This document shows positions 914 through 44,700 of a stretch of 64,000 bases of DNA, piece after piece. Position 1 is the first letter of the stretch; each line of letters begins with the position of its first letter. The translations under genes were made by a program, and so were the position numbers. Under the pieces are notes generated by a model that worked only from the letters and a program-made list of their open reading frames with translations, had not been told where the DNA came from and did no database searches. The DNA is taken from NCBI GenBank assembly GCA_036250195.1, contig JAVHZZ010000003.1:337910375-337974374 (forward strand). Direction: 5' to 3'. The stretch is from Mixophyes australis (lineage: Eukaryota; Chordata; Amphibia; Anura; Limnodynastidae).

Positions 914-2629
914 CGGTATGTGCCTAAAGGTGTTATCTGTGAGCGACTACCTTCAGTTGTGCCAAGTAATGATGGTGCAGGACAGGGACTTTTTGATCTA
1001 TTGACAAACTTTACAGCATCTTAAAACTGATCCCAAAATTGATCCCAAAAAAATGTTCATCTGATAGTACAGATGGAGCTGCAAGCTACCATGGCCAGTA
1101 TAATGGTTTACACAGTAAAATTACTGATGTGACTGATCAGAATGTTCATATTTGGTGCTATGCCCATGTCTTGAATTTGGTTATAACTGAAACAACAAAA
1201 TGCTGTGTGCCTGCAGTTTTTTTTTCAAGGTGCTCCAGAAATTAGCAACTTAGGTGAAAACATCATGCAATACAATGGCTGTATGAATAGAAGTTGTTGG
1301 AAAACATCTAGGACAAGAAAAATGGAACGATTAAAGCTAATTGGTGAGACAAGATGGTCAGGAAAATCCAATGCAGCAACAACTATATTTGAAACTACAG
1401 CCCCGTTATCAAGTTATTTACAGACAAGTGGTTTAGCACGGCAGCACGGTGGCTTAGTGGTTAGCACTTATGCCTCACAGCACCGGTCTTATCTGTGTGG
1501 AGTTTGTATGTTCTTCCCGTGTTTGCGTGGGTTTCCTCCAGGTGTTCCAGTTTCCTCCCAAACTCCAAAAGCATACTAGTAGTTTAATTGGCTACTATTA
1601 AATTGACCTTAGTTTCTCTCAGTGTGTGTATGTTAGGGAATTTAGACTGTAAGCTCCAATTGGGCAGAGACTGATGTGAGTGAGTTCTCTGTACAGCACT
1701 GCGGAATTAGTGGCGCTATATAAATAGCTGATGATGAGATGTTTACTGCGTGGAGTTTAGTAGATTCAGCTACCACAAAGTTGAAGGAACAGACAAGAAC
1801 ATTTGATAACGTTCATAGAAAGGCATTGGAATTTGTAAATAAATGTAATGACATGATTTCACAGTGGAATATGGATGAAAATCGAACATTGGAAATGGAC
1901 TCTTTGGAAACAACATTGTCAGTTAAGAGGCAGCCGAAGAAGAGAAGACTGGCAGATGATCTTATAGATGATGAAGGAAATTTCTCAGATCCTCTAGCTG
2001 ATTTTCGAGTAAATGTGTTTAACCTAATAATGGACCACATTGTCCAGTCACTAGATTCACGCTTTGTAAAACACAAAAAGTTGTATAAAGATTTATCCTG
2101 CTTGGACCCAGCAAAGTTTAAAACTACTGCAGAGAAGGTCCTTGAAGATGAAGCATTGAAAGGTATTATTACTCTGTCTCCGCAAATCAGCAAAAATCAA
2201 GCAATATTGGAATTGTTTTCTTTTGTTTTGTCGAACTTTGATGTATTAAAGCTATTGCTTAATGATGGTGAGAATATGGATTCCAGTTGCAACTACTGTA
2301 ATATTTGTAACACTTGTCCATCGTGTGTACTAAAAATTCTGGCATCCAACAGACTTCATGACCAGACATATGATAACCTCTCTGAACTTTATAAAATCAC
2401 CTGCACACTATTAGTTACTCAAGTCCAATATGAGAGGACATTTTCAAAGCTAAAGATCATAAAGACAAGGCTAAGAAATTCACTGTCTGAGGAGAACTTG
2501 GAATCATACATGATGCTGTCCATTGAAAAGGAATTGTTAGATGAATTGGATGCAGAAGCAATTATTGACAGATTCGCACGATCATCTAGTGAATTCAAAC
2601 GATTGCTCTTAATACAGTGGATGGCATGA
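914..2629 (+). pseudogene. hAT-superfamily transposase relic (ZMYM1-like lineage), split by a SINE
   Basis: Relic of a cut-and-paste DNA transposase. Reading + strand frames from about 914 gives a degraded stretch (RYVPKGVICERLP) and then, at 1039-1245, the hAT catalytic-core signature DGAASYHGQYNGL and HIWCYAHVLNLVI. The frame shifts around 1205-1245 and continues to about 1439, where a SINE interrupts it. Reading resumes at 1739 and stays open for 296 codons to 2629. This second part ends with the hAT C-terminal dimerisation region, with short motifs QYERTFSKLKIIKTRLRN and MLSIEKELL. The N-terminal zinc-finger part is missing, and stops and shifts precede 1039. Known for the family: RNase-H-fold core and C-terminal dimerisation domain. 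It is dead as a transposase, although the last 296 codons remain open. Confidence 0.85.
1440..1738 (+). mobile_element. tRNA-headed SINE, near full length, inside hAT relic
   Basis: Starts GGCAGCACGGTGGCTTAGTGG, which contains an RNA polymerase III A-box-like TGGCTTAGTGG. It continues through the family body (GTGTGGAGTTTGTATG, GGTTTCCTCC) and the 3' segment (GCGGAATTAGTGGCGCTATA), ending in a short GAT repeat. It separates two in-order halves of a hAT transposase, so it inserted after that element. The B-box region is partly deleted here. The microsatellite-like tail suggests mobilisation by an RTE-type LINE; that is inference. Confidence 0.85.
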
Positions 2630-4176: not shown

Positions 4177-6381
4177 TCATACAATAACCACCACCTTACG
4201 ACCAAAAGCACCCAACCACAGGGCAACTGCAGAGCAGGTGCCAGGAGGTAGCAGAAGAGTCTTCACATTAGGGCAAACGGAGTCAGTCCTGGCTCCCATC
4301 TGGAAGAGCCTACGAGGGGAATAATATACTCTATGCAAAATATAAAGCTGAATCTTCCAGTACCTAGTACATGAGGTGGCCTCTTTCTCGCTACCCAACA
4401 TACAACACCAATACTCTTCATCCAGAGGTATCAGATCCACCTCCAACCCAACTCTTAGTTGCCCCAAGTCATCAGCAGCGATAACAAAGAGATAACACAT
4501 TAGCCTATAACAAAGAGATAGTTTTGACAGAACCCATCTGTCTAAGAAGGAGCTTAAGAGTGGCTGGGCTGAACTGAATAGTAAGGCCCCCAAACTAGGA
4601 GATAACGGTGTGCAACTGCAAGTAGCTATAAAGTAAGCAGTTTGGGAGGGGAAAATCCAACTGCAGCTGTGCAAAGGATCTCAGGGTGAGTAAAGAGGCG
4701 TCTCAGATTAATCAAGATGAATGTCCCTGGCATAAAACCAGTGCTAAGGTGCATAGCCAGGAATTTAGCCAGTATTTTAACATCCGTTGTTTAAAGAGAA
4801 AAAGTCCAATAGGACTCAGGCAGCAATGGATTGTTGCCTGGCTTGGAAAAAAAACCTACTATCAAAGCCTCTGACGTGGATGGCATTAGAGAGGTCACCA
4901 CCAAAAGACTATTAAAGGTAGTTAGAAGCGTGGGGATAAAAAAGTCATCAATTATTTTTTTTTATACAACTTCACTGGCAACCCATCCACACCTGGTGAC
5001 TTGTTACAGGGGAATGACGAGATCCAGCTCCTCCACCTTAAAGGGGGCCTCAAGACACTGAAAGGAGTCAGAAGGGGGTGAATATCTTGCCCCAGAGCCG
5101 TACAAATTGCTATAATAATTACGGAAAATGTCAGCAATCTGCTCACTTTGGAAATAGGTGGCAGGTGGCACCCTGACAATCTAAATGGCAGAGATGGTAG
5201 TATGTTGCAGTTCCATCCTAGCCAAGTAAGCAATAAGACTACCACTCTTGTCTCTTTTGTCAGCCCATGCTTTTTGAGCATGGAGCCAGTGTAGGCGATT
5301 GAAGGTTGCAAGAGTGTAAAGGTTAGTTCGCTGAAGATCACGAAAGGCTTGCTCCAACCTAGTCTCTTCCTCCCTGTAAAATGGCTTGCATCCCACCACT
5401 TGTTGGATCAGGGTACCCCTAAGGAAAGCCTTGAAGGCATCCCAAAGGAGAGGGGGATGGACTTTGTTTACATTTGTACCAAAGAAACCTTACCAATCCA
5501 CCACCAAATCACTCCCCATACCCATGAGGGTAAGCCAGAATGGGTTGAATTTCCAGAATCTGATTCCGGTCCGCGGGGTAAGTGCGACAACAAGTAGTAT
5601 AGGTGAGTGGTCAGAGGTGGCCCTAGGGAGATAGCTCACCTCTCCAACCAGGAGTGTCTGCCTTTGTGAAACTAAAGCAAGGTCAATTCGGGAGAATGTG
5701 TGGTGTGACATAGAATGACAGGAGCAATGCTGAAGATGTGAAAATTGTACCCTCCAGACTTCCACCAACCCCAGGTCCATCACCAACTTAGCAAATGGGG
5801 AAGGGCCCTGGTCAACCAGCAAAGGTATCTCCCTCCACCTATCAAAGCCAGCATCCATAACGTTATTGAAATCTCCCATACACAATAGCGGAGCATGTGT
5901 GGAGAGAACTATGAATTTGTCTGGCTTCTTAAGCACTTCAGAATTGAAAGGTGGAGGGACATAGATGGCTAAAAGTGTAATGGGAGAATTATCCACCAGG
6001 AAACTGAGAAATACGTAACAGCCATAGGGTTCTAGCTGTACCTGCTCCAAGACAAAATGCAAATTTTTCTTACAAGTACTGATATCCCCCAAAAGTTGGT
6101 GAATGCACAGTGTGATAAGTCCATCATACCCAGGGCTTCTCAAGAGCCAGGATTCAGCTTACCATAAGATGAGTATCAACCAGGCACACTATGTCAGAGT
6201 TATATTTTTTAATCTGAATTAGAAACAGAGACCTTTTTACACAATCATTAAGGCCCTTCACATTCCAATAGAGCAGACGGAGCCCCCCCGCCCCTCCCCT
6301 ATTCACAGTCATCAGAGAGGGAACAAAAATAAATCCTACAGGTAATCCCGACCAGTCACCCCCAACCAAATAGAAGAACAT
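4177..6381 (-). pseudogene. L1-superfamily LINE ORF2 relic (endonuclease, partial RT, C-terminus)
   Basis: Minus-strand remains of the endonuclease/reverse-transcriptase protein of an L1-type LINE. In protein order: the start of the AP endonuclease at 6381-6154 (LLYWNVKGLNDCVKRSLF), then a 217-codon piece at 6143-5490 with GDFNNVMDAGFDRW, SRIDLALVS and SDHSPI (endonuclease active-site blocks). A connector follows at about 5399-5181, then the RT entry motif NKSPGVDGLP near 5000. A KILAKFLAMHL-like RT piece lies near 4765. Most of the RT palm, including the YxDD box, is missing between there and a C-terminal block at about 4480-4180 (KIQLYILHRVYYSP). Several frameshifts and an internal deletion make it inactive. 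The assignment to L1 rests on motif order and the upstream ORF1 relic. Confidence 0.8.
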
Positions 6382-13711: not shown

Positions 13712-15237
13712 CAGGGCCTGATTAAGGGTTCTGGCCGCCCTAGGCTAATACGGCCGCAGCGCCGCCCCCCCCCCCCCTCCTCCGAATATATAGGTGTATA
13801 GGAACACTCCTGAATATGAATGTTCAGGTGTATTCTCCAGCATTCAAATTTAGACAGATTGTGCCATTGTCTCTTACCTGTCCTTGCTCTTCTCTCTTGC
13901 AACTTTGTTATCCTCTCGTTGGCTTCTGGAAAGTTGGCGTCCTTTTTTGAAAATGCAAAAATGTATTATAATGCAAACCCTGAATGATTAGGCCCTTTAG
14001 TTAAAACAAAACACTCCATTATGGCCAGCTAAAAGTACCCCATTGGACAGGCATATATAAGCAATATCTGAATATTTGTTGTCAATCAAATACAAACCTC
14101 TACCAGCCCCATCTCACTAATATTTAGTATTCTAGTGATTGCTGAGACCACCCATGTGACCACCACACAATCATGAGATTCTGCCCCCCAAAGCTGCTCT
14201 ATTTTTTAAAAAGCCCCTGCAGCCATTTTCCTTAACCACAACCCCCCCCCGCACAGCCATTTTCCTTAACCCCTGCTGCAGCCATTTTCTTTACCTCCCA
14301 CCCTGCATCCATCCCCCTTGCAGCTATTTTCCTTACCTCCACTCTGCTAGGTAGCTATCCCCCCCCCCCCCCCGTCACATCAAAACTTCCCCAGTCACAT
14401 ATATCAGCCCCCCTCCTCTGCCCTCCTTCATACATATCAACCTCTCTACCTCCCTATAGATTTTCATGGCAGCCCCCCCCTCCCACCCTATAGATTTGTA
14501 TGACAGTCCCCCTCTCCCTCCCTATACATATGCATGACAGTCCCCCCCTCTCCCTCCCTATACATATGCAGGGTATTTCCCCCCCCCCTCCCTATAGATA
14601 TGCAGGGTAGTCGTCCCCCCTCCCTATAGATATGCAGGGTAGTTCCCCCCCTCCCTATAGATATGCAAGGTAGTTCCCCCCCCCCCTTCCTATAGATATG
14701 CAGGGCAGTTCCCCCTCCCTATAGATATGCAGGGCAGTTCTCCCCCTCCCTATAGATATGCAGGGCAGTTCCCCCCCCTCCCTATAGATATGCAGGGCAG
14801 TTCCCCCCCCTCCCTATAGATATGCAGGGCAGTTCCCCCCTTCACTTACCTGTAGTTGTGCCAGCGTCGCTCCTCTCCTCAGATCAGCAGATAGGAAGTG
14901 AAGACGTCCTGCTTTCTGTCTGCTGCACAGCAACAGGCAGCCTGGCGATTGGCTGTGTGTTGCTAACCACTGACCACCAATGCTTTTGATCGTCGAGCCC
15001 TCCACCCCCCTGCGGCGATCCCCCCCGCGCGGCGATCCCCAGCGGTGACCCCCCCCCCCTCCCCCACCCCGAAAAAAAAAATGAATGAAGAAAAAAAAAA
15101 AAAATGAAAAAAATAAAATGTAAAAAAAAAAATAATTTTAAAAAAAAAAAAAAAAAAAAATACCCACAGTGCAGCGCCCCCCGGGACCCAGCGCCCCAGG
15201 CTGCAGCCTGGTCAGCCTAGTGGTTGATCAGGCCCTG
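13712..15237. mobile_element. 1.5-kb non-autonomous hAT-like element carrying a minisatellite
   Basis: Ends CAGGGCCTGATTAAGG and (reverse strand) CAGGGCCTGATCAACC form inverted repeats. The flanking octamers are TACACAGT (13704-13711) and TACACACT (15238-15245), matching at 7 of 8 bases, as in hAT insertions. The interior has no transposase. It is dominated by C-tracts, a 12-unit minisatellite (14452-14842) and a run of A-tracts at about 15069-15162. It has probably been inflated by replication slippage. Confidence 0.8.
14452..14842. repeat. minisatellite, about 12 units of 29-37 bp
   Basis: Each unit reads roughly CCCTATAGATATGCAGGG followed by AGTT and a C-tract. Unit length varies mainly through the C-tract. 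The leftmost units are diverged (TATAGATTTTCATGGCAG); the rightmost are nearly identical. It lies wholly inside the hAT-like element. Confidence 0.9.
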
Positions 15238-32720: not shown

Positions 32721-35700
32721 GTGAGTATACCCTTCTGTGCCTGGGATCAGATACTGGGCTGTGCTGTACACCTACTGGAAGTACATTGTAATTGGATAAT
32801 CATGCCACAGTACATGGCTTTTGTGTTATAATGAAGCTCCAGCTGCTTATATTACTAGTTATTCAGTGTAACATGCATATTATAATTATTCACATGGTGC
32901 ACCGTTCATCATAACAAGCTTACACAATTATAATATAGTTATCTGTTTAAGTTATAGTTTGTAATGCCTCAAGTGACTAGGGGATCAATTAAAACCATCA
33001 TAAATGTTTGTGGACATCACATTACACCGTGTTCTGCCCAGCACCTATTGCCCGGTTGCTGCCCCCGGGTGCTTTTACTTGCCACCCGGCTTTTCGAGCC
33101 CAACAGAGTCATATTATAATAGAATAAATTTAATAATGTTGCTCCTAGTTTAACAGGCAATATGTGAGAGCTACAGCCAGCAGTGTGTGTTAGACCACTG
33201 ACCACCAGCCTGACCAGTCCTGGCAGGTGTGGGCAATAACATTCAACATTTTTGATTATTATTCCAACGTATTGCAACTGCCCCCACCCGGCTACTTCTT
33301 AATGCCACCTGGCTGCCAAAATGTTCTTGGGACAACACTTTTACATTATTTCCCTGTACAGTGTACATAAAGGTACTCTGGGTCTATTTACCAAAGGGAC
33401 AAAATATTGGAGTTTTTGCAGTATTTAGGGCTTCTGCTTGTTTTTAAGCCCCCTTCTAGTGATAACTATCACTGGTGGTAGCCATCGCTTTGCTCCTTTG
33501 TTGCATGGGGAAGCCTATTTACCAAGGACGATGGCGGTACAAGTACAATAACAGGCACTTCCATGGCCACAGTATTTATTCTTTCCTGGCATGTGGTTGG
33601 CACAGACCGCTACAGTGTAGTATGTTGTTATATGTCTGAGGCTTATAGTAGGCGTTCTGTAGTCTATGAACTACCCTACAAGACCCCTATTTGTTTTAAA
33701 ATATTTTAAGCAAAATAAAATAGTCTTATCTTTTAAGCATGTCGTTGTTAGATCTGAAAATCTGACCCAAGTCTGCCTGTGGTGTCAAGTATATCTGGAA
33801 GCGCTTCAATCAGCTGGAGAGAATTGACACAGACCAAGTTCTGTATACAAGGAATATTCTCTAGTTTATTGATACAAAGATACAGGTTTTTATAGGCTAC
33901 TGAATAAATGAATCCTACGTCATATGCATACAATAGTTTATACCACTAGTTTATGAGAAGCGCTACTGATTAACTTTCTCACGTATTCTTGAGGTGTTTA
34001 CTTTTCTCCCCCTTCTAAGGACAGATGAGCCTATTGTTTCTTATCTCAAGGGGAGTTGGAGATATTCTATGTGTAACACCATGGATACAGCTCCCATCCT
34101 ACCAGCTGGATATGAAGCTCATTATTGTTTTCATAACTGGTTACATTCTTCAGGTGTTCTCTATTAATTCAACTTCAAGGCCATAGGCTCACGTATTACA
34201 AAACTGCAAGTTAACAGAAAAATGAATAATCTCTTCTAGCAAATAATATTTCTATGCAAGTTACAATAAAATGGCTGAACAAAGGCCTTATGAGGCCTTA
34301 ACAAAAAATCATATTTAACATTTCCCATCTTTTATTCAATTTTCGCCCCTTTCTCCTCCTACCTACCTAATCCTATCTATAGAATCACATTCTTCATAAG
34401 CAGGTACGTATACACATGTAGAAGGCCACATGCATAGAGTTGGTCCCCTTAGGAATCTGTCAACTCATCCCCCACTAATAAGCCTGTGATCCTCCCTGTT
34501 CTAACTTGATTTATGAGGAGATGCATTTTGGCAAATGTCCATGTCTAGAAAAGATGGTTTCTTAGAAGACGGCTTCTTAGTAGGTAGTTAATGAGTCTAT
34601 AGTAGTTCTGCAGGCCTTGCATGTCCTTTGTTCAGTTGTCAATAATTTCTTGTTGCAGACTGTGCATTTCTTTGGTTTGTCTGCTGACCATTGTTCATAG
34701 AGTTCACTGTTTGTCTCAGGCATTAGTCTTTTAAAAATTTCTGTGATCATTACAGGTTCAGGAAGCTCATTCTTTTTCCTGCAGGAGCAACAATCAAGTG
34801 TCAGTAATTTCTTAGTCAGCCATATAGCAATTTTCACTACCACATATATGACTAGCAGAAGAACCATACATTTTGCAATTATTGATAATATACCGGATAT
34901 CCATCCCCCTAATCCATTAAACCAATTAGCAGGATTAAGCCAGGAGAACCAGGTTTCTGACAACCATGGTTCCTCTTTATGTTGTTCTGCAAAGTCCCTT
35001 TTTAGTCTCCTGACTTCATTGAGGTGATCTTCTATAGCTAAATTTACCTCATAAGTTTGGTTTACATAATTGCAACATGCTTCCTTGGCAATCATACACA
35101 TACCTCCTTCTCTGGCTGTGAGGTAGTCTAATACTAATCTGTGGGCCTGAACCTCCTTTGTGATCATTTTCATTTCTTTTACCATTAATCTGAAGGTCAC
35201 ATCATATTGATCCGTTACCTTATCAATAAGGCTGGCCAGATCTATTATGTATGAAAAAGCTTTCTTTATACAGCATCTGTTTACCCAGGGGAGGTTGATT
35301 AGTTTAGGGTCTGATTTTTTTGATGGAGACAGGGAACGTTTTATTACACTATGTTCTCTTAAATCTTGTGCATTGTAATATTCAGGGAGCATTTCATCTA
35401 CATAATATGTACTTGGTAATATTCTTCCCAATGTACAGTTACCATATCCACCATATGGTAGCCACTTATATGCTCTTCTTCCACATAGGTAATATATATC
35501 AGATGGGAGAACATAGGGTATATCAAACACCAGGTGGCTTATGGCCCTCAATATATCATGTGTTTTAGTCATATTGGGAGTTATTACAGTCATGTTACCC
35601 TTGCAGTCTGATTGATTCATCCAGTCTGGATAGGAGCGCTGTATCCAGACTCCCAGTAAAGGTATACTGTTATTCCTACAGGTATGAACGGAGACTGGAG

Positions 35701-38700
35701 GTATTCTCCCTTTATCAGGGTTTGTATTATCTGTAAATATTAGGCTGGCTGCTTGACAGGGAGCCATCCCTAGGTTATAATTATTATGCTTTATTGTGAT
35801 GTTTTTGCCTTTCTGAGTAGCTTGCATAGTGGAGGATTCCGATATAGGATGTATAGTTATACAAAAGTCAACTTTCTTGGCAAACAGGGTAGTTAGTATT
35901 GGTACTGGGAGAGTGACATATTTACTTTGGGTCACCTTGCTTCCCCCAGTTAGATTTAAATCTGCCGCTTCCCCAAGTGTGAGGGGAACAGCTACCCAAT
36001 TCATGGTTTTAGCTGACAGTGGGGGATATGTGCAAACCCAACAATTTGTAAGATTTAATGTTTTGGCTGCTGTATAATGCATTTGAACAAAAGCATTATC
36101 CCATGGTTCATTAAGAGTCTCGTGTAATTCTCTCCTTGTTCTGAAAGTCAAGTTTGATTTCAGGTCACTATATCTGAAATCTTTTCCATGTTTTATGGAC
36201 AAACCAACAGCATAGACTATACCCATGACACTTATCAACATCAGTAGTAGTCCAGTTATTATTATGCATTTTGGTTTTACAATACATTTTTCTTTACACA
36301 TTTTTACTTGTCAGAATCTGACTCCCCTTGTAAGAAGATCTTGCAATGCGATGCGTGGATCCAGGTATCCTTCCCTTCTAGTTTCACAGACGTGGGAGTT
36401 GTCAACAAAACCTGGTATGGACCCTCGTATCGGGGTTCAAGACTTTTCCTGACGTATTTCCTTATGACCACCCAGTCTCCAGGCTGCAAAGAATGCGTGT
36501 CAGTGTCAAGATTGGGATCTGGAATAGAGGAAAATACCTGTCCGTGTATCTTGGTTAATTGCTTTTGTAACAGAGTTACATAGTTTAATAAATCTCCATG
36601 ATAATGTTGCAGTTGTTGTGGAAAATAGCATCCCGTTCTATAGGGGCAACCAAACAATATCTCATAGGGTGTTAACCCTGTGCCTTTCCTGGGTGTGTTT
36701 CTGACAGAATGTAGAGCTATGGGCAGGCATGATATCCAGGGCAGCCCTGTTTCAGCCATTATTTTCTGGATTTTTAGTTTCAGAGTACCATTAAGCCTCT
36801 CTACACATCCTGAGCTCTGGGGGCGATAGGGGGTGTGGAGAGCAGAGGTAATTCCCATGTCCCTCAGTCTTTGTTGAAACTCTTCTCCTGTAAAGTGTGT
36901 ACCTCTATCACTTTCTATCACTTCTGGAACTCCATATCTGCACACTATTTCTTCTGTTATTTTCTTTGCCACTGTTTTAGCATTTGCTTTTCTGCATAGC
37001 CACGCCTCCACCCACCGACTGAAAAGGTCCACACACACAAGTACATTTTCATACCCTGAGCATTTGGGAAGGTGAATAAAATCTATCTGAATCCTTTGAA
37101 AAGGATACAATGTCTGAGGGGTGCATTTCTGTGGAGTTGGGACAGACTTACCCGGGTTGTTTTGTGCGCAGATTAAGCATCCTGACACTATTGCCTGCGC
37201 TGCTTGGGCAAACCCCGGGGCTATCCAGTATTTATTTGTTAGTGCTACCATAGCATCCTTCCCCAGGTGCACTTTACCATGTACTATATTGGCCATAATC
37301 GTGTAAAGTGCTTTTGGCAGACATAATTGCTGACCTTTACACCATTCTCCTTGCACTTTTAGTGCACCTAGTCTAGCCCAAGCTCTTTTCTCATTCTCTG
37401 TTGCTTGCTTTTGCATAGCTTGGAGTATGGTTCGGTCAAATTTGGGATCTGGGACTACCACGTAGGCAACTTCCCCTTCTGGGATTGGCGTTACAGCAGC
37501 TTCTCGAGCGGCTTGGTCTACCAGTCTATTTCCCTCTGCTTCGGGCGTTGTTTCCTTGGTGTGTGCTTTAACCTTAATAACTGACAGTTTGGCAGGCATC
37601 TGAAAGGCAGTAAACAATTCTCTTATGTGGTTTGCATGTTTTATGGGTCTGCCCGATGACCCCATAAAGTTTCTGCTTTTCCATATTGGACCATAATCAT
37701 GAGCTATACCATAGGCATAGCGTGAGTCTGTGTAAATGTTGACTTTTTGCCCTTCAGCATATATACAGGCCATTGTCAATGCTTTTAACTCAGCTTCCTG
37801 TGCTGACATATAGCTTGGGAGTGATCTCTGAATCAATATGTATTTCTGTGTAGTGACAGCACAACCTGTATATGGTGTGCCGTCTATGTAGTAGCGTGAG
37901 CCATCTACATATAGATCTATGTCAGCATCAGGGAGTGGTGTATCATGTATGTTTGTTAGGCCCAAAGCCTCTAATTGCATGAGTTCAATGCAATCATGAT
38001 CAGAAAAAAAGTTTTGTTTGCATAATTTTTCAGTTTCTGTTTCTGCTGTGACTTCTTCTAACCCTTCAGGCTCATTTTTACTATCTGGTTCCATTTCCCC
38101 ATCTTTTAAATCTTGCGGAAATAATGTAGCAGGATTTAAAACTGTGCATCTTTTTAAAGTAACATTGCTGGGGGTCAAAAGAGCTACTTCGTATCGGGTT
38201 AGTCGAGCAGCTGACAAATGTTTTGTCTGTGCTTGGTTCAGAATTTCAGTGACAGCATGCGGGACCATCAGTGTTACTGGATGGCCTAAAACAATATCTG
38301 TACTTTTCTCCAATATTATTGCTGCAGCTGCAACCGCTTTTATGCATGTTGGTGCAGCCTTAATAACATGGTCTAGCTGAGCAGAGTAATATGCCAATGG
38401 TTTCTGCTTATGTGCATGTTCCTGTGTCAGTACTCCATTTGCGTGTGCATTAGTTTCATGGCAGAACAGTGTAAAGGGCTTGTCATAATTTGGTAGAGCC
38501 AGCGCAGGAGCTGTTAGTATGTCTTGTTTTAACGTTTGGAACATATGTACTTGTTCCTGTGTGAGTTGTATAGGTCCTTGTTGCATGGGCCCCTTCAAGA
38601 CTTCATACAATACTTGTAGTTTGCTGGATGCAGCGGAAATCCAGTCTCTGCAGTAAGTCAATAAGCCCAAGAAAGCCCTGAGCTCCTTGTAGGTATGTGG

Positions 38701-41700
38701 TACCTGCACTTTTTGTATGGCTTCCTTTCTCTGTTCTGTTAAATGTCTGGCCTGATGTGAAATGCAATGGCCTAAAAATTCAACTTTCCTTTGTACTGCC
38801 TGTAATTTTTCTTTTGATGCTTTGCAGTTTTTTTTGCACAGAAACTGCAAGAGTGAGACAGTGTCTTGTTCACATGTTTCTTGTGTGTTTGCACATAACA
38901 GCAGATCGTCAACATACTGTATGACCACAGAAGAGGAATTAATTGGCAACCAGTCTTTTAGAATCAGGGCCATGGCTTCAGAGTATTCACTAGGACTGGT
39001 TGCCCCTCCCTGTGGTAATCTGGTCCAAGTGTACTGTTTATCCTGGTAAGTAAATGCAAAAAGTTCTTGGCTTTCTTCAGTAATGGGTACTGAAAAAAAT
39101 GCATTTGCTAAGTCTATTACTGTAAACCATTCTGATGTAGGAGGTATTTGATTTAGTAGCGTGTGAGGGTTAGGAACTATTGGTGTATTGATCATTATTC
39201 GCTTGTTAACTTCCCTCAGATCGTGTATCATTCTAAACGACGGCGTACCGTCTGAATTTGGGGACCTCTTCATTATGGGATAGAGTGGAGAATTCCAGCT
39301 TGATCTACATTCACGTAAGACTCCTGCCCCAAGGTAGTCTTTGACCTGGTAACCTATTGCAGTTGTCTGATCAGGTCTTAAGGGGTACTGTTTAGTCTTT
39401 ACTGGCTGTGCCCCTGGTTTCAGTTTAATTTGTACAGCTTGTACAGGCATAAGGCCTACATCCATCTTTCCCTTTGCCCATAGTTCTGGGTTTACCTGGG
39501 CAAAGAGATAATCTAGATTTACATAAAAACACCAAGTAGGTTCTGAGTTGCTGACATTGACATTAAGAAGGAACTGGGCAGTGTCAAAAGCTATGAGTCC
39601 CATTTTACTGGGACTCACTGTCAACTCCACCTGCCCATCTTTGTATTGTATTGTGGCATTAAGGGCTGACAAAAGATCTGCTCCCAATAGATTCATGGGG
39701 CAGCTGTCTGACACTAAAAATTGTGTGTCTATCGTTTGATTGTCATCTAATTCTATAGTTAGAGGTTTGGTTTTGTGTAGTAATTGTATTCTCCCATCTA
39801 GTCCTGTTGCAGGCACTGTTTCAGGGGAAATAAATGACTGTGGTAAGAGTTTAGTTTGCAAGACTGAAGTGGCAGCCCCAGAATCTATCAATGCAGTTGT
39901 CTCAGTTAGTCCCCTTATTTTAAGAGGTATTGTACATTGGGAACCGGAGGATACAGTTAGGCTGGGTAGTATGTGATTCTGGGGGCCGTTTTCCTATGCT
40001 GTCTTTGGTTTGTACTCAACTCGTGGCGCCCCTGTATTTGGACAGTCCCTTTTTAGGTGGCCTTTTTGTAAGCAATGAAAACACAACCCCTTCTTCATAC
40101 ACTCCTGAGATCTCTGTGTCATTTTAATACTGCTTATTTCTGGAGTCTTCTGTTTAGGCATGGGACACTTGAATGACTTTTCAGGGTGCTGCATAACATA
40201 TACATGTTGTAGTGGTTTCTTTTTGTCCTGCCTGTCTTTGCTATCTTCTTCTATGGCTTTAAGGACAGTCAGAAGCACATCTGGTGCTAGTGTGGAATAC
40301 TCTGGTCTGCTGACTTTGAGTGTTTTTAAGATGTCAGGACTTAAACCTCCCAAAAAGGCATTTCTGAATACTCGTACGTCTCTGGCATCCACAAACCCAT
40401 ACCCATAGTCCTCATGCCTCTGTCTGCACTCTGTGTAATATTCAGTTACAGATTGCCCCTTCCCTTGAGGGGTATCTTGGGAGGGCATGTCTCTTATTTT
40501 TCCCTCACAATATGCTTGACACTTAGCTGTCCATTGTTGCCCACTCAAGGCTTCCTTTTTTCTAGCGTCAGTTGGCATAACTATTGCTGCACCATCTATC
40601 ATGGCAGCAGTTTGGGCTATTTGATTGGCAGCATAATTCCCTACTGTTACCTTGGTCATTTGATCTAAGTCTAACCAGGTAGCATTATAAAATATCTGCA
40701 GGTGGTTCATGTATCGATAGAAACCCATTGGATTCTTATCTATATTTGGCACATCTCTGGCCAATGACATTTGATCTGTTGGGGACCAGGGTTTGTACCA
40801 ATTTACTACACGGTCTTCTATTGCTGGGGGGATGTTATTTGGTCCAGCTACCCTCCCCGGAGTTGTCTGATTATAGACAGGATAAAGTCCCATTATTGGT
40901 TCTGCGGGCTGAATTTCAGCAGATATGCCATCATGAGACAGGGGTGGAGCAGTAGGTTCGATTTTGAGCTCTAATTTGTTCATTCTACATGAGGGACATT
41001 CTGTATCCCTCCATAAGTGTATTTGAGGGCATCTGCACTTCCAAGTGTGTTTCTTTTTCATTAGCACTATTTTCCCTGCGTTCTCTGCATGCCCCCTTAA
41101 ATCTTCTCTCGGTCCCTCGGGTGATTGGTTGTCATAACAAGATCTACATGATGTGGTCCAGTGTGCACCACATGCAACACAGACCTGGTCCCCTGCTGAA
41201 TTACCATACCCACAATTATATCTTGGACAGCGCCATTTACGCTGTCTTTTCATGCTACCTGCATATAATTGGCAGGCATCAGTGTCACAGGATAAACCCA
41301 AATTTAAAGCGGTCATATTCTCTTCTAATTCTTGTGTCTCTTGTTCTAGCAAAATTTGTTCTGAAACTTTCAGCCAGTTCAGCAGTTTACCTTCTAGTTT
41401 ATGTTTCTTTACATAATCATTGTAGGATTTATATATGTGTTGTATCTTGATGGGATCCAATGTCCCTTCTCTACCTATTCCAGCTTTTTTGAATAAATCG
41501 CCCATGCCTTCTATTCCCCCGTTTCCTAAGATTCTGCGCATTATGTCCACGGGGGAATTGCTGTCATCTGTCTGTTTGCTATCACTATTACCCATAGTGA
41601 CAGCAGTCTGTTGAGTCCAAATAGGGATTCCTATCTAGTTTCTGTGGGTTGTCCTTGTAATGGACGTCCCGTTCTGTGGACTCCTGAAGCAATATATCTG

Positions 41701-44700
41701 TGGACTAATCTGTAGATTGTCCTCTCAAAAGAGTTTCTCTGACAGTATCTGGGATGAAGGCACTAGTGATTCTCTCAAAAATTGGACAAATAAGTGGTTT
41801 TTTCTTACTTATATTTTTTGGTATGGTCTGTAATATGTCTACCCAAAGTTCTCCTTTTCTTGTTTTGATATAGGTCACATCTGTATGAGTGCCTATTATA
41901 GCAATATAATTGGCTGAACTATAACCAGAGTAATATATGTCACCTCTGCTACCAAAACTGTCTATGACCGTCAATAAATTGGGACTTAAAAAACAACTGG
42001 TCTTCTGTAATATGAGTAGTCCTGTGCACTGATTACACTGATAGAGACCAACAAATTGTGACATGTATAGATGTTCAAAGCAGTAACTTTCTGATTCCCT
42101 TATGTGCTTTCTAACAGATGTATATTACACCCAAAATAACCAAAACAATCAAAATAGAACTTCTATGTTCGTCTGCTTTGTTAGTGTTTAGATATTGGGA
42201 AACTAACTGTCAACAAATGATTGTTCAGACAAAGACAACCCTCCGGCCTCTGGCGCCCGTTTCACGAGTACCAACGAGAAAACGCGGAGGACCCTGACCA
42301 GACACAGTGGGCGACTTTATCAACACTTCTACCGTGTTTTATTAGCCGTCACTTAATTCAACCCTGTATGAGCTAGGAAGTCTTAAGACGTAACCCAGTT
42401 ATCACAGTTCGCGGTAGACAAGGGCAAGCCTCAGCAGCAACCACGAAGTGAGGTCTTATGATCAACGTCTTATTTGACTTTCTATCCTTTATACATCATA
42501 CAATAGGCACAAACACATGCACTCAAAATTCATTCATCTTTCAAGAATCTAATCAACAATACAATTACAGTAAACAAATTGGGTTAGTACTGTATTATAT
42601 TAATCAGATGATACTTGAGACTCACAAATTCGCGTGTCAGGTGCCTCAGACAGACATGAGGTGACCCAGACTAGGAAGACCAACGAGTAGAAATCTACTC
42701 ACCATGGATTTGTTGGGGTTCAAGGTCCTGGGAAACCTCCGTTGTCTGTCTTGTAGCCTGCTGGACAGCGAATCTCGGTGGCGACCTCCAAGTTGTTAGA
42801 TCTGAAAATCTGACCCAAGTCTGCCTGTGGTGTCAAGTATATCTGGAAGCGCTTCAATCAGCTGGAGAGAATTGACACAGACCAAGTTCTGTATACAAGG
42901 AATATTCTCTAGTTTATTGATACAAAGATACAGGTTTTTATAGGCTACTGAATAAATGAATCCTACGTCATATGCATACAATAGTTTATACCACTAGTTT
43001 ATGAGAAGCGCTACTGATTAACTTTCTCACGTATTCTTGAGGTGTTTACTTTTCTCCCCCTTCTAAGGACAGATGAGCCTATTGTTTCTTATCTCAAGGG
43101 GAGTTGGAGATATTCTATGTGTAACACCATGGATACAGCTCCCATCCTACCAGCTGGATATGAAGCTCATTATTGTTTTCATAACTGGTTACATTCTTCA
43201 GGTGTTCTCTATTAATTCAACTTCAAGGCCATAGGCTCACGTATTACAAAACTGCAAGTTAACAGAAAAATGAATAATCTCTTCTAGCAAATAATATTTC
43301 TATGCAAGTTACAATAAAATGGCTGAACAAAGGCCTTATGAGGCCTTAACAAAAAATCATATTTAACATCGTTTACCGTTGCAAAAATGTGTGCGCTACT
43401 GATAACGGATATTTTAGCAGCATGTTGGTTTCAAGCCATATACAACATCACTGCATCATGTATGTTAGAAGTAGAAACAGTAAGTCACTAGTAGCAATGC
43501 AAAGTGTGTATTACTTGGTGGAGGCTGGAAAGTTTATTATTTACAGTTTCCAGCCTTATAATCAAAGTGTGTAAATTGTCTTATCCGCAGAAATGGAAAC
43601 TAAAACAGACAATGGGGCAGAGTCTAATCAAACCGTCTAAAAAGGAAATGTGGAACTGTTGTCCATAGCAACCAATCAGATTCTATATTTAATTTATCTA
43701 GATAAAGATGGCTAGAGTCGGATTGGTTGCTATGAGCAGCACCTCCACTTTTCCTTATTCGGAGGTTTGATGAGTCTACCCCAGCGTCTCTTTTGGTATG
43801 TCATTGTTTGTTCATATATCTACCTTCTTGCTGCTAGTTGATGATGCCGTGACAGCACACACTATTTCAGCACCCATTGTCTGAATATACTATACTACAA
43901 GCGTACCATACTTATCCACCTATATAATTAAAATTATGATTGCATGGAAAATTCATGTGTATCTTTATGTTCCCAGAAACTTCTGTGTTCCATATATTAG
44001 TACAAATCACACAGAACAATCCACTTCTGTATCCTTATTGTCCCTCATTTGGAGACAATGACGATGGAGATGTTTTGTGGCCTTGATCAGGTGTTTTCAG
44101 AAAATGGACTTCTGATGTGTGATAGGACTTGTAGCCTTCCGAGCCTTTGTGTGCTCCGTAAGTTCCTGATAAACAGAATCTGAAGTCAGGTTACCATACA
44201 CCAACAAATATATTTAAAGCACACCTTTTCACTCGCTAAAAAAATAAATAAAAAGCTACTACATATTTTGATAGACAACATGGTCATAAACTACACATAG
44301 GTATAACATACATAATTAAACAAATCTGTACTTTTTGCTTCTATAACATTGAACCAATGAAGGTTGTATGTATTGTATGAATAAGTATTGGGTATACAGG
44401 AAGCACGTCTGCAAAGTGTTCCAGCCCTCTATTGCACTAATGTGCTCTCACTCTCTCTATCTTGAGTATTGAGACTCCTGAGAAAGCTGACTGCCAAAAT
44501 GTAAGAACTTCTCTGTCCATTCCAAATTTTATTATACTGTAATGCTAGTCCATTGTCATGAGGCAGTGTTGCAAACAAGAGCTTTTCTTTGGCAAACAAA
44601 TAATAAGTTTGTGTTTTAAATAATGGCGCAGCCTATATCCTGTTGGGGAGATCTGTAAAACATAACCGTTTGCTGGGTGTTGATAGGTTTACAGCAGATT

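Follow-up and report, generated by a model that had tools for sequence, protein, structure and literature searches.

A putative zinc-ribbon module between matrix and capsid in an amphibian endogenous retroviral Gag, RanBP2-like in one clade

Introduction

Why should a retroviral Gag carry, between its matrix (MA) and capsid (CA) regions, a cysteine-rich block that resembles the RanBP2/NZF zinc fingers of cellular proteins? Accounts of retroviral Gag usually place zinc in the nucleocapsid knuckles only. The block considered here belongs to a provirus in a 64,000-nucleotide stretch of the genome of the frog Mixophyes australis, the whole of which we analysed and call the window. An earlier note on this DNA had proposed that the block consists of two RanBP2-type fingers, which might link Gag to ubiquitin-dependent budding or provide a second RNA-binding module.

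Results

The provirus

The Gag is encoded by a provirus with the following parts.

33746..34320, minus strand: 3' LTR, 575 bp, identical to the 5' LTR in a comparison of the LTR pair
34577..36301, minus strand: env open reading frame (ORF), 574 aa, gamma-type (TLV_coat; PF00429, E 8.3e-9)
36304..39993, minus strand: pol (protease, RT, RNase H, integrase), in the same frame as gag, after the gag stop codon TAG
39994..41595, minus strand: gag ORF, 533 aa, intact, N-terminus MGNSDSK
42794..43368, minus strand: 5' LTR, 575 bp, from the same comparison

The two LTRs show 0 differences over 575 bp, and a 4-bp target-site duplication, TCGT, flanks the provirus at 33742-33745 and 43369-43372. Among solved structures, those nearest to pol are p80 reverse transcriptases, which we take to be those of MLV or XMRV, followed by the MMLV-type RT; the integrase has an MLV-type C-domain. 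A single CCHC knuckle, a gamma-type RT, the integrase C-domain and Env were all found, as in class I (gamma/epsilon-like) retroviruses; the single CCHC is described as a class I trait in the part of the source available (PMC2577118). Because of the affinity of pol, the MLV-type integrase C-domain and the TLV_coat env, we assign the provirus to this class, of which it is a young endogenous member. Eight genomic places, the window's included, carry gag segments that are 99-100% identical and have a 546-aa open frame. Given the identical LTRs, the open gag, pol and env, and these eight near-identical gag places, the provirus family has therefore been recently active.

The 5' LTR is separated from gag by a leader of 1.2 kb. 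This contains a 119-aa ORF at 41705-42064 (minus strand), in a different frame from gag, and the sole Pfam match of the ORF is at chance level (E 0.21). Elsewhere in the window are a hAT-transposase dimerisation domain (PF05699, E 7.5e-8) in an ORF at 1739-2629 (plus strand), an endonuclease/exonuclease/phosphatase match (PF03372, 24.8 bits, cut-off 24.5) in an ORF at 5490-6143 (minus strand), a domain that occurs in LINE elements, and a tandem array at 14449-14840 with about 12 copies of a 31-32-base unit.

The cysteine block

Within Gag, the block and the motifs that follow it are arranged as listed here.

41170..41235, minus strand: putative zinc site 1, RanBP2-like (W121, C123, C128, N132, C139, C142)
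41137..41148, minus strand: intermediate CxxC pair (C150/C153)
40987..41043, minus strand: putative zinc site 2, not of the RanBP2 type (W185-x-C187-x-C189-x3-H193-x-W195-x4-C200-x2-C203)
40945..40956, minus strand: PTAP late-domain motif, residues 214-217
40036..40086, minus strand: single CCHC nucleocapsid knuckle, residues 504-520 (PF00098, 19.7 bits, cut-off 20.8)

The block had been located correctly (W121 begins at 41235 and C203 ends at 40987), and W-x-C-x4-C-x3-N-x6-C-x2-C is indeed present at Gag residues 121-142, as are the second group of residues at 185-203 (W185, C187, C189, C200, C203) and the CxxC pair C150/C153 between the two. Both groups had been read as RanBP2 fingers; the first fits this description, but the second is a different Cys/His/Trp motif. 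We rejected a RanBP2 finger at 185-203, where Asn is absent from the expected place and no family match was obtained.

The signature that we tested, W-x-C-x(2,4)-C-x3-N-x6-C-x2-C, is the RanBP2 consensus given in the accessible part of a published account (PMC6384913), to which we added the last Cys. Gag has a single instance, at residue 121, which is also the only one in all six frames of the window. Shuffles of Gag as a whole reproduced it in 0 of 200,000 trials, and shuffles of the Cys-rich stretch 103-205 in 8 of 200,000. Basic residues flank both sites (KRQRKWRC and KKKHTWKCR) and are mostly retained in relatives.

Relatives in the same genome

We sought relatives of the block in the frog's own genome (3.13 Gb) with Gag residues 106-232. 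This yielded 49 matching rows, a single copy being split over two rows in some cases. Eight rows, the window's own included, are at 99-100% identity, one is at 91%, one at 87%, and the others are at 32-81%. It had been allowed that the block might be a local corruption absent from all related Gags. On the contrary, it recurs in these 49 rows, its Cys, Trp and Asn being kept at 49-52% identity, the level at which the blocks of L019-L024 match that of the window, and it is therefore no local corruption.

Conservation was counted as the rows with the residue over the rows with a letter at that position, in 23 distinct sequences representing 30 loci, again with the window's own. At site 1, the counts are 14/17 for W121, 19/20 for C123, 18/19 for C128, 18/20 for N132, and 17/21 each for C139 and C142, the weakest-kept positions. 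The intermediate pair is kept at 19/21 (C150) and 18/21 (C153), and site 2 at 14/16 (C187), 14/15 (C189), 15/17 (H193), 15/16 (C200) and 15/16 (C203). Between the window and six relatives of about 50% identity, dN is 0.36-0.40; three of these pairs give a dS of 1.98-2.26, whereas the other three are saturated. dN is lower than dS in all 15 pairs among these six relatives. The close pair of the window and L017 (dN 0.041, dS 0.053) lies barely below neutral.

Two relatives with distant capsids, L037 and L095, have W-x-C-x2-C-x3-N-x6-C-x2-C exactly, with Trp and Asn present and C-x2-C replacing C-x4-C, which is the other spacing permitted by the RanBP2 consensus; a search of the same genome with L095 gave 12 rows. 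Two decayed copies inside the window's clade differ: the module is deleted in L053, and L106 has no ribbon in three frames. Just after the block, PTAPPPSYEG or PSAPPPSYG occupies the late-domain site of some relatives. The placement of a RanBP2-like finger between MA and PTAP/CA, put forward in the earlier note, is thus borne out, and it is conserved in related Gags.

A plain zinc ribbon in other Gag lineages

A capsid search of the same genome gave 572 candidates, of which 150 were scored, with identities down to 24%. From these rows, we picked 40 loci, mostly for long open frames and lineage spread, a non-random sample that includes many near-copies. CxxC-x8..11-CxxC lies in the Gag frame of 33 of the 40 and in another frame in L094; one of the four ribbon Cys is absent from L072, L073, L107 and L108, and L098, like L106, has no such ribbon in three frames.

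In a capsid tree of 34 rows, rooted at its midpoint only, the window, the relatives of about 50% identity and L037, L095, L098 and L106 form one clade with a support of 100/98. Three of the 40 chosen loci (L095, L098 and L106) are thus in the window's clade, and the other 37 represent six lineages, 24 of these loci being on the tree and the remainder placed by sequence. The capsids of the six lineages are 24-33% identical to that of the window. Five of them mostly have C-x2-C-x2-C-[IV]-P-x5-C-P-x-C, although the third Cys of the ribbon is missing from L094; in the sixth (L091, L093), the form is C-x2-C-x9-C-x2-C. This plain ribbon lies between MA-like and CA-like regions, and shuffling of six representatives reproduced the motif in 1 to 32 of 20,000 trials. 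Two CxxC-type knuckles about 10 residues apart, the arrangement of a zinc ribbon/DZR, were found, the first knuckle being C-x4-C in the window. In L069 and L094, a second CxC...CxC motif follows the ribbon, immediately before the YPV of the presumed CA start.

Register between the lineages

In an hhalign comparison, the window's clade (15 rows) matched eight RanBP2-type fingers of the host with P 2.5e-5, the Trp, the Asn and four Cys being in register. Against nine segments from the other lineages (L091 excluded), it gave P 2.8e-4, or 4.5e-5 with another column setting, with five Cys in register (C123, C128, C139, C142 and C153); C150 was not aligned, and C153 pairs with a Cys that the other lineages conserve. 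With 200 column shuffles per comparison, the best shuffled scores were 19.3 and 26.6, against observed scores of 27.6 and 32.4, respectively; 0 of 200 shuffles reached the score observed with the host fingers. The profile of the other lineages gave no hhalign match to the host RanBP2-type fingers. We also considered homology of site 2 between clades and rejected it: the motifs in L069 and L094 look like the window's site 2 by eye, but P is 0.055, which is within the shuffles.

An unforced MAFFT alignment of 15 Gags has C128 invariant and C139, C142 and C153 at 90% or more; over whole Gags, C123 lies outside the common columns. At position 131 of this alignment, the window has Gly and nearly all the others have Cys, a residue that is also present in 16 of 20 rows of the window's own clade. 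Because the clade rows and nearly all the other aligned Gags agree in this way, the Cys was probably lost from the window's form and retained in its family.

Family profiles and structure models

In the comparison with zf-RanBP called for in the earlier note, PF00641 covers residues 119-145 with E 0.0052, but at 16.4 bits it is below the cut-off of 27. It reaches 19.4 bits on an 88-residue fragment and 21.9 bits on L095, against the same cut-off of 27, and it matches a single stretch of Gag only, the second block being unmatched. No Pfam zinc family exceeded its cut-off among the sequences scanned, the nearest being PF13248 on L095 (25.6 bits, cut-off 27); PF12773 gave 25.1 bits on the same locus (cut-off 27.3). 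The other Gag lineages score weakly against the zinc-ribbon families PF12773, PF13240, PF13248 and PF18912. For Gag_p12, Gag_MA and Gag_p30, no match is listed at E up to 10, with filters that discard most weak matches.

A RanBP2 finger folds as two hairpins around one zinc. AlphaFold2, run with shallow alignments, gave a mean pLDDT of 37.9 for the window's clade and 54.0 for the other lineages; the former model has three strands over site 1, with every residue below 70. A PDB sequence search with the block found nothing significant (one LIM protein at E 2.8), protein searches of a 5.8-billion-sequence set with Gag 1-280 and the queries A1 and A2 returned no match, and a viral contig set scanned with A1 and a pol stretch contained no relative.

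Discussion

How might this block have arisen, and what might it do? We consider, with moderate confidence, that it is an old zinc-ribbon module of the Gag MA-CA linker that has become RanBP2-like in one well-supported clade. At the level of sequence, its presence, position and conservation are established, as is its likeness both between clades and to RanBP2-type fingers of the host; the module is predicted to bind zinc. We regard it as old because a plain ribbon is also present there in six further Gag lineages of this genome. Since that ribbon lies at the same place, the resemblance to RanBP2 is probably the form that an older Gag module takes in a single clade, rather than the mark of an isolated insertion. 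The ancestral MA-CA linker would have carried a zinc ribbon, which has the plain form in the six other lineages. In the window's clade, the first ribbon would either have acquired the RanBP2 form, with its Trp and Asn, or have retained it; after this ribbon come the CxxC pair and a second, clade-specific Cys/His/Trp site.

The module might instead be an RNA- or membrane-binding element, its basic residues adding nucleic-acid affinity beside the single CCHC knuckle. The basic flanks, largely retained in relatives, are consistent with this, and several RanBP2-type fingers bind ssRNA through D4, N14, an aromatic residue at 17, R19, R20 and N24, according to the part of the source available (PMC6384913). 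By our own mapping of the residues given there, however, the window Gag has 0 of the six, and of the nine further viral rows in the comparison, L037 alone has one of them. All six are likewise missing from the RanBP2-like finger of the host, which is presumably a protein binder. The same partial source reports no RNA binding by ZRANB1-B, a protein segment without the two Arg (PMC6384913). A second RNA-binding module in the known RanBP2 form, as once suggested for this Gag, is thus not what its residues indicate, and we consider the RNA- or membrane-binding explanation unlikely.

We give still less weight to the capture of a host RanBP2/NZF finger by the ancestor of the clade, the captured finger acting as a ubiquitin reader through which Gag would be linked to ubiquitin-dependent budding. 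The exact signature, the occurrence of both canonical spacings in one clade, the profile match to host fingers, and PTAP and, in relatives, PPSY-like motifs directly after the block would all suit such a reader. The Thr-Phe pair of NZF fingers is located after the second Cys, and their last hydrophobic position has a role in ubiquitin binding. In the Gags, Tyr stands in for the Phe, and the residue at the last hydrophobic position is Ala in the window and Ile in relatives, which also speaks for a reader. Yet the pair is Gly-Tyr in the window and Gln-Tyr in the relatives compared, so that the Thr is absent; ubiquitin-binding NZFs need the Thr-Phe pair, as stated in the accessible part of the source (PMC11555115), and this argues against a ubiquitin link in the known NZF form. 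Moreover, the plain ribbon of the other lineages, which is without Trp and Asn, aligns in register with the block, and its third Cys is shared by 16 of 20 clade rows; capture is therefore unnecessary. As for chance cysteines in a fast-evolving linker without a zinc site, the low Pfam scores and poor AlphaFold2 models would be expected, but the conservation, the alternate canonical spacing and the shuffle controls make this highly improbable.

Returning to the old linker module, we propose that it may be a small, folded, zinc-stabilised protein-docking patch beside PTAP/PPxY-like late motifs, because the six ssRNA residues and the ubiquitin-binding Thr are absent. Such a patch could have a part in assembly, in budding or in early steps after entry; it would not be a GGU-type RNA reader. 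The MA-CA linker is the place of p12 in gammaretroviruses, and the p12 of MLV tethers incoming capsids to chromatin; RYBP offers a comparison for a RanBP2-like reader of a host protein. A bolder reading, to which we attach little probability, is that many class I retroviruses, forming a large group, would possess a zinc ribbon between MA and CA as a standing domain, no less regular than their CCHC knuckle. In one clade, the ribbon might then have turned into a RanBP2/RYBP-like reader, whose target would be a host protein such as ubiquitin, ubiquitinated histone or Ran and whose use would lie in budding or in the tethering of incoming capsids to chromatin.

The block resembles several known systems, each with differences. 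It shares with the RanBP2/NZF finger (PF00641) the signature in both spacings and a profile similarity to host members, but it scores below the Pfam cut-off, lacks the ssRNA residues and ubiquitin Thr named in the available parts of the sources, and adjoins more Cys pairs, with an extra Cys before the Asn in 16 of 20 clade rows. It is like the double zinc ribbon families (PF12773, PF13240, PF13248, PF18912) in having CxxC-x10-CxxC plus a following Cys; however, the scanned Gags are below their cut-offs, and site 2 has CxC after a long spacer. In position and late-domain motifs, and with gamma-type pol and env alongside, it recalls gammaretroviral p12, from which it differs in being cysteine-rich and in having no Gag_p12 match listed at E up to 10.

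Among described frog endogenous retroviruses, the portions of the literature available to us mention XtERV-S, a class III element with a PSAP late motif and without a Cys-His box, a 'zinc-finger double domain' in about 40% of SnRV elements and a zinc knuckle in about 20% of XEN1 elements (PMC8278194, PMC4131045). These are likewise endogenous retroviral Gags, XtERV-S also having a late motif, but in those portions, compared by description only, no MA-CA zinc ribbon or RanBP2 finger is named (PMC8278194, PMC4131045). In the open-access literature searched, no title or opening of an abstract places a zinc ribbon or a RanBP2 finger between MA and CA. The module thus appears, provisionally, to be undescribed.

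If several lineages do conserve a zinc ribbon next to their late domains, it would be a further domain of Gag, and it would offer a handle, simple to test, on the use that these viruses make of host proteins. The case also serves as a warning that what matches the RanBP2 signature can be an older viral module in the version of a single clade.
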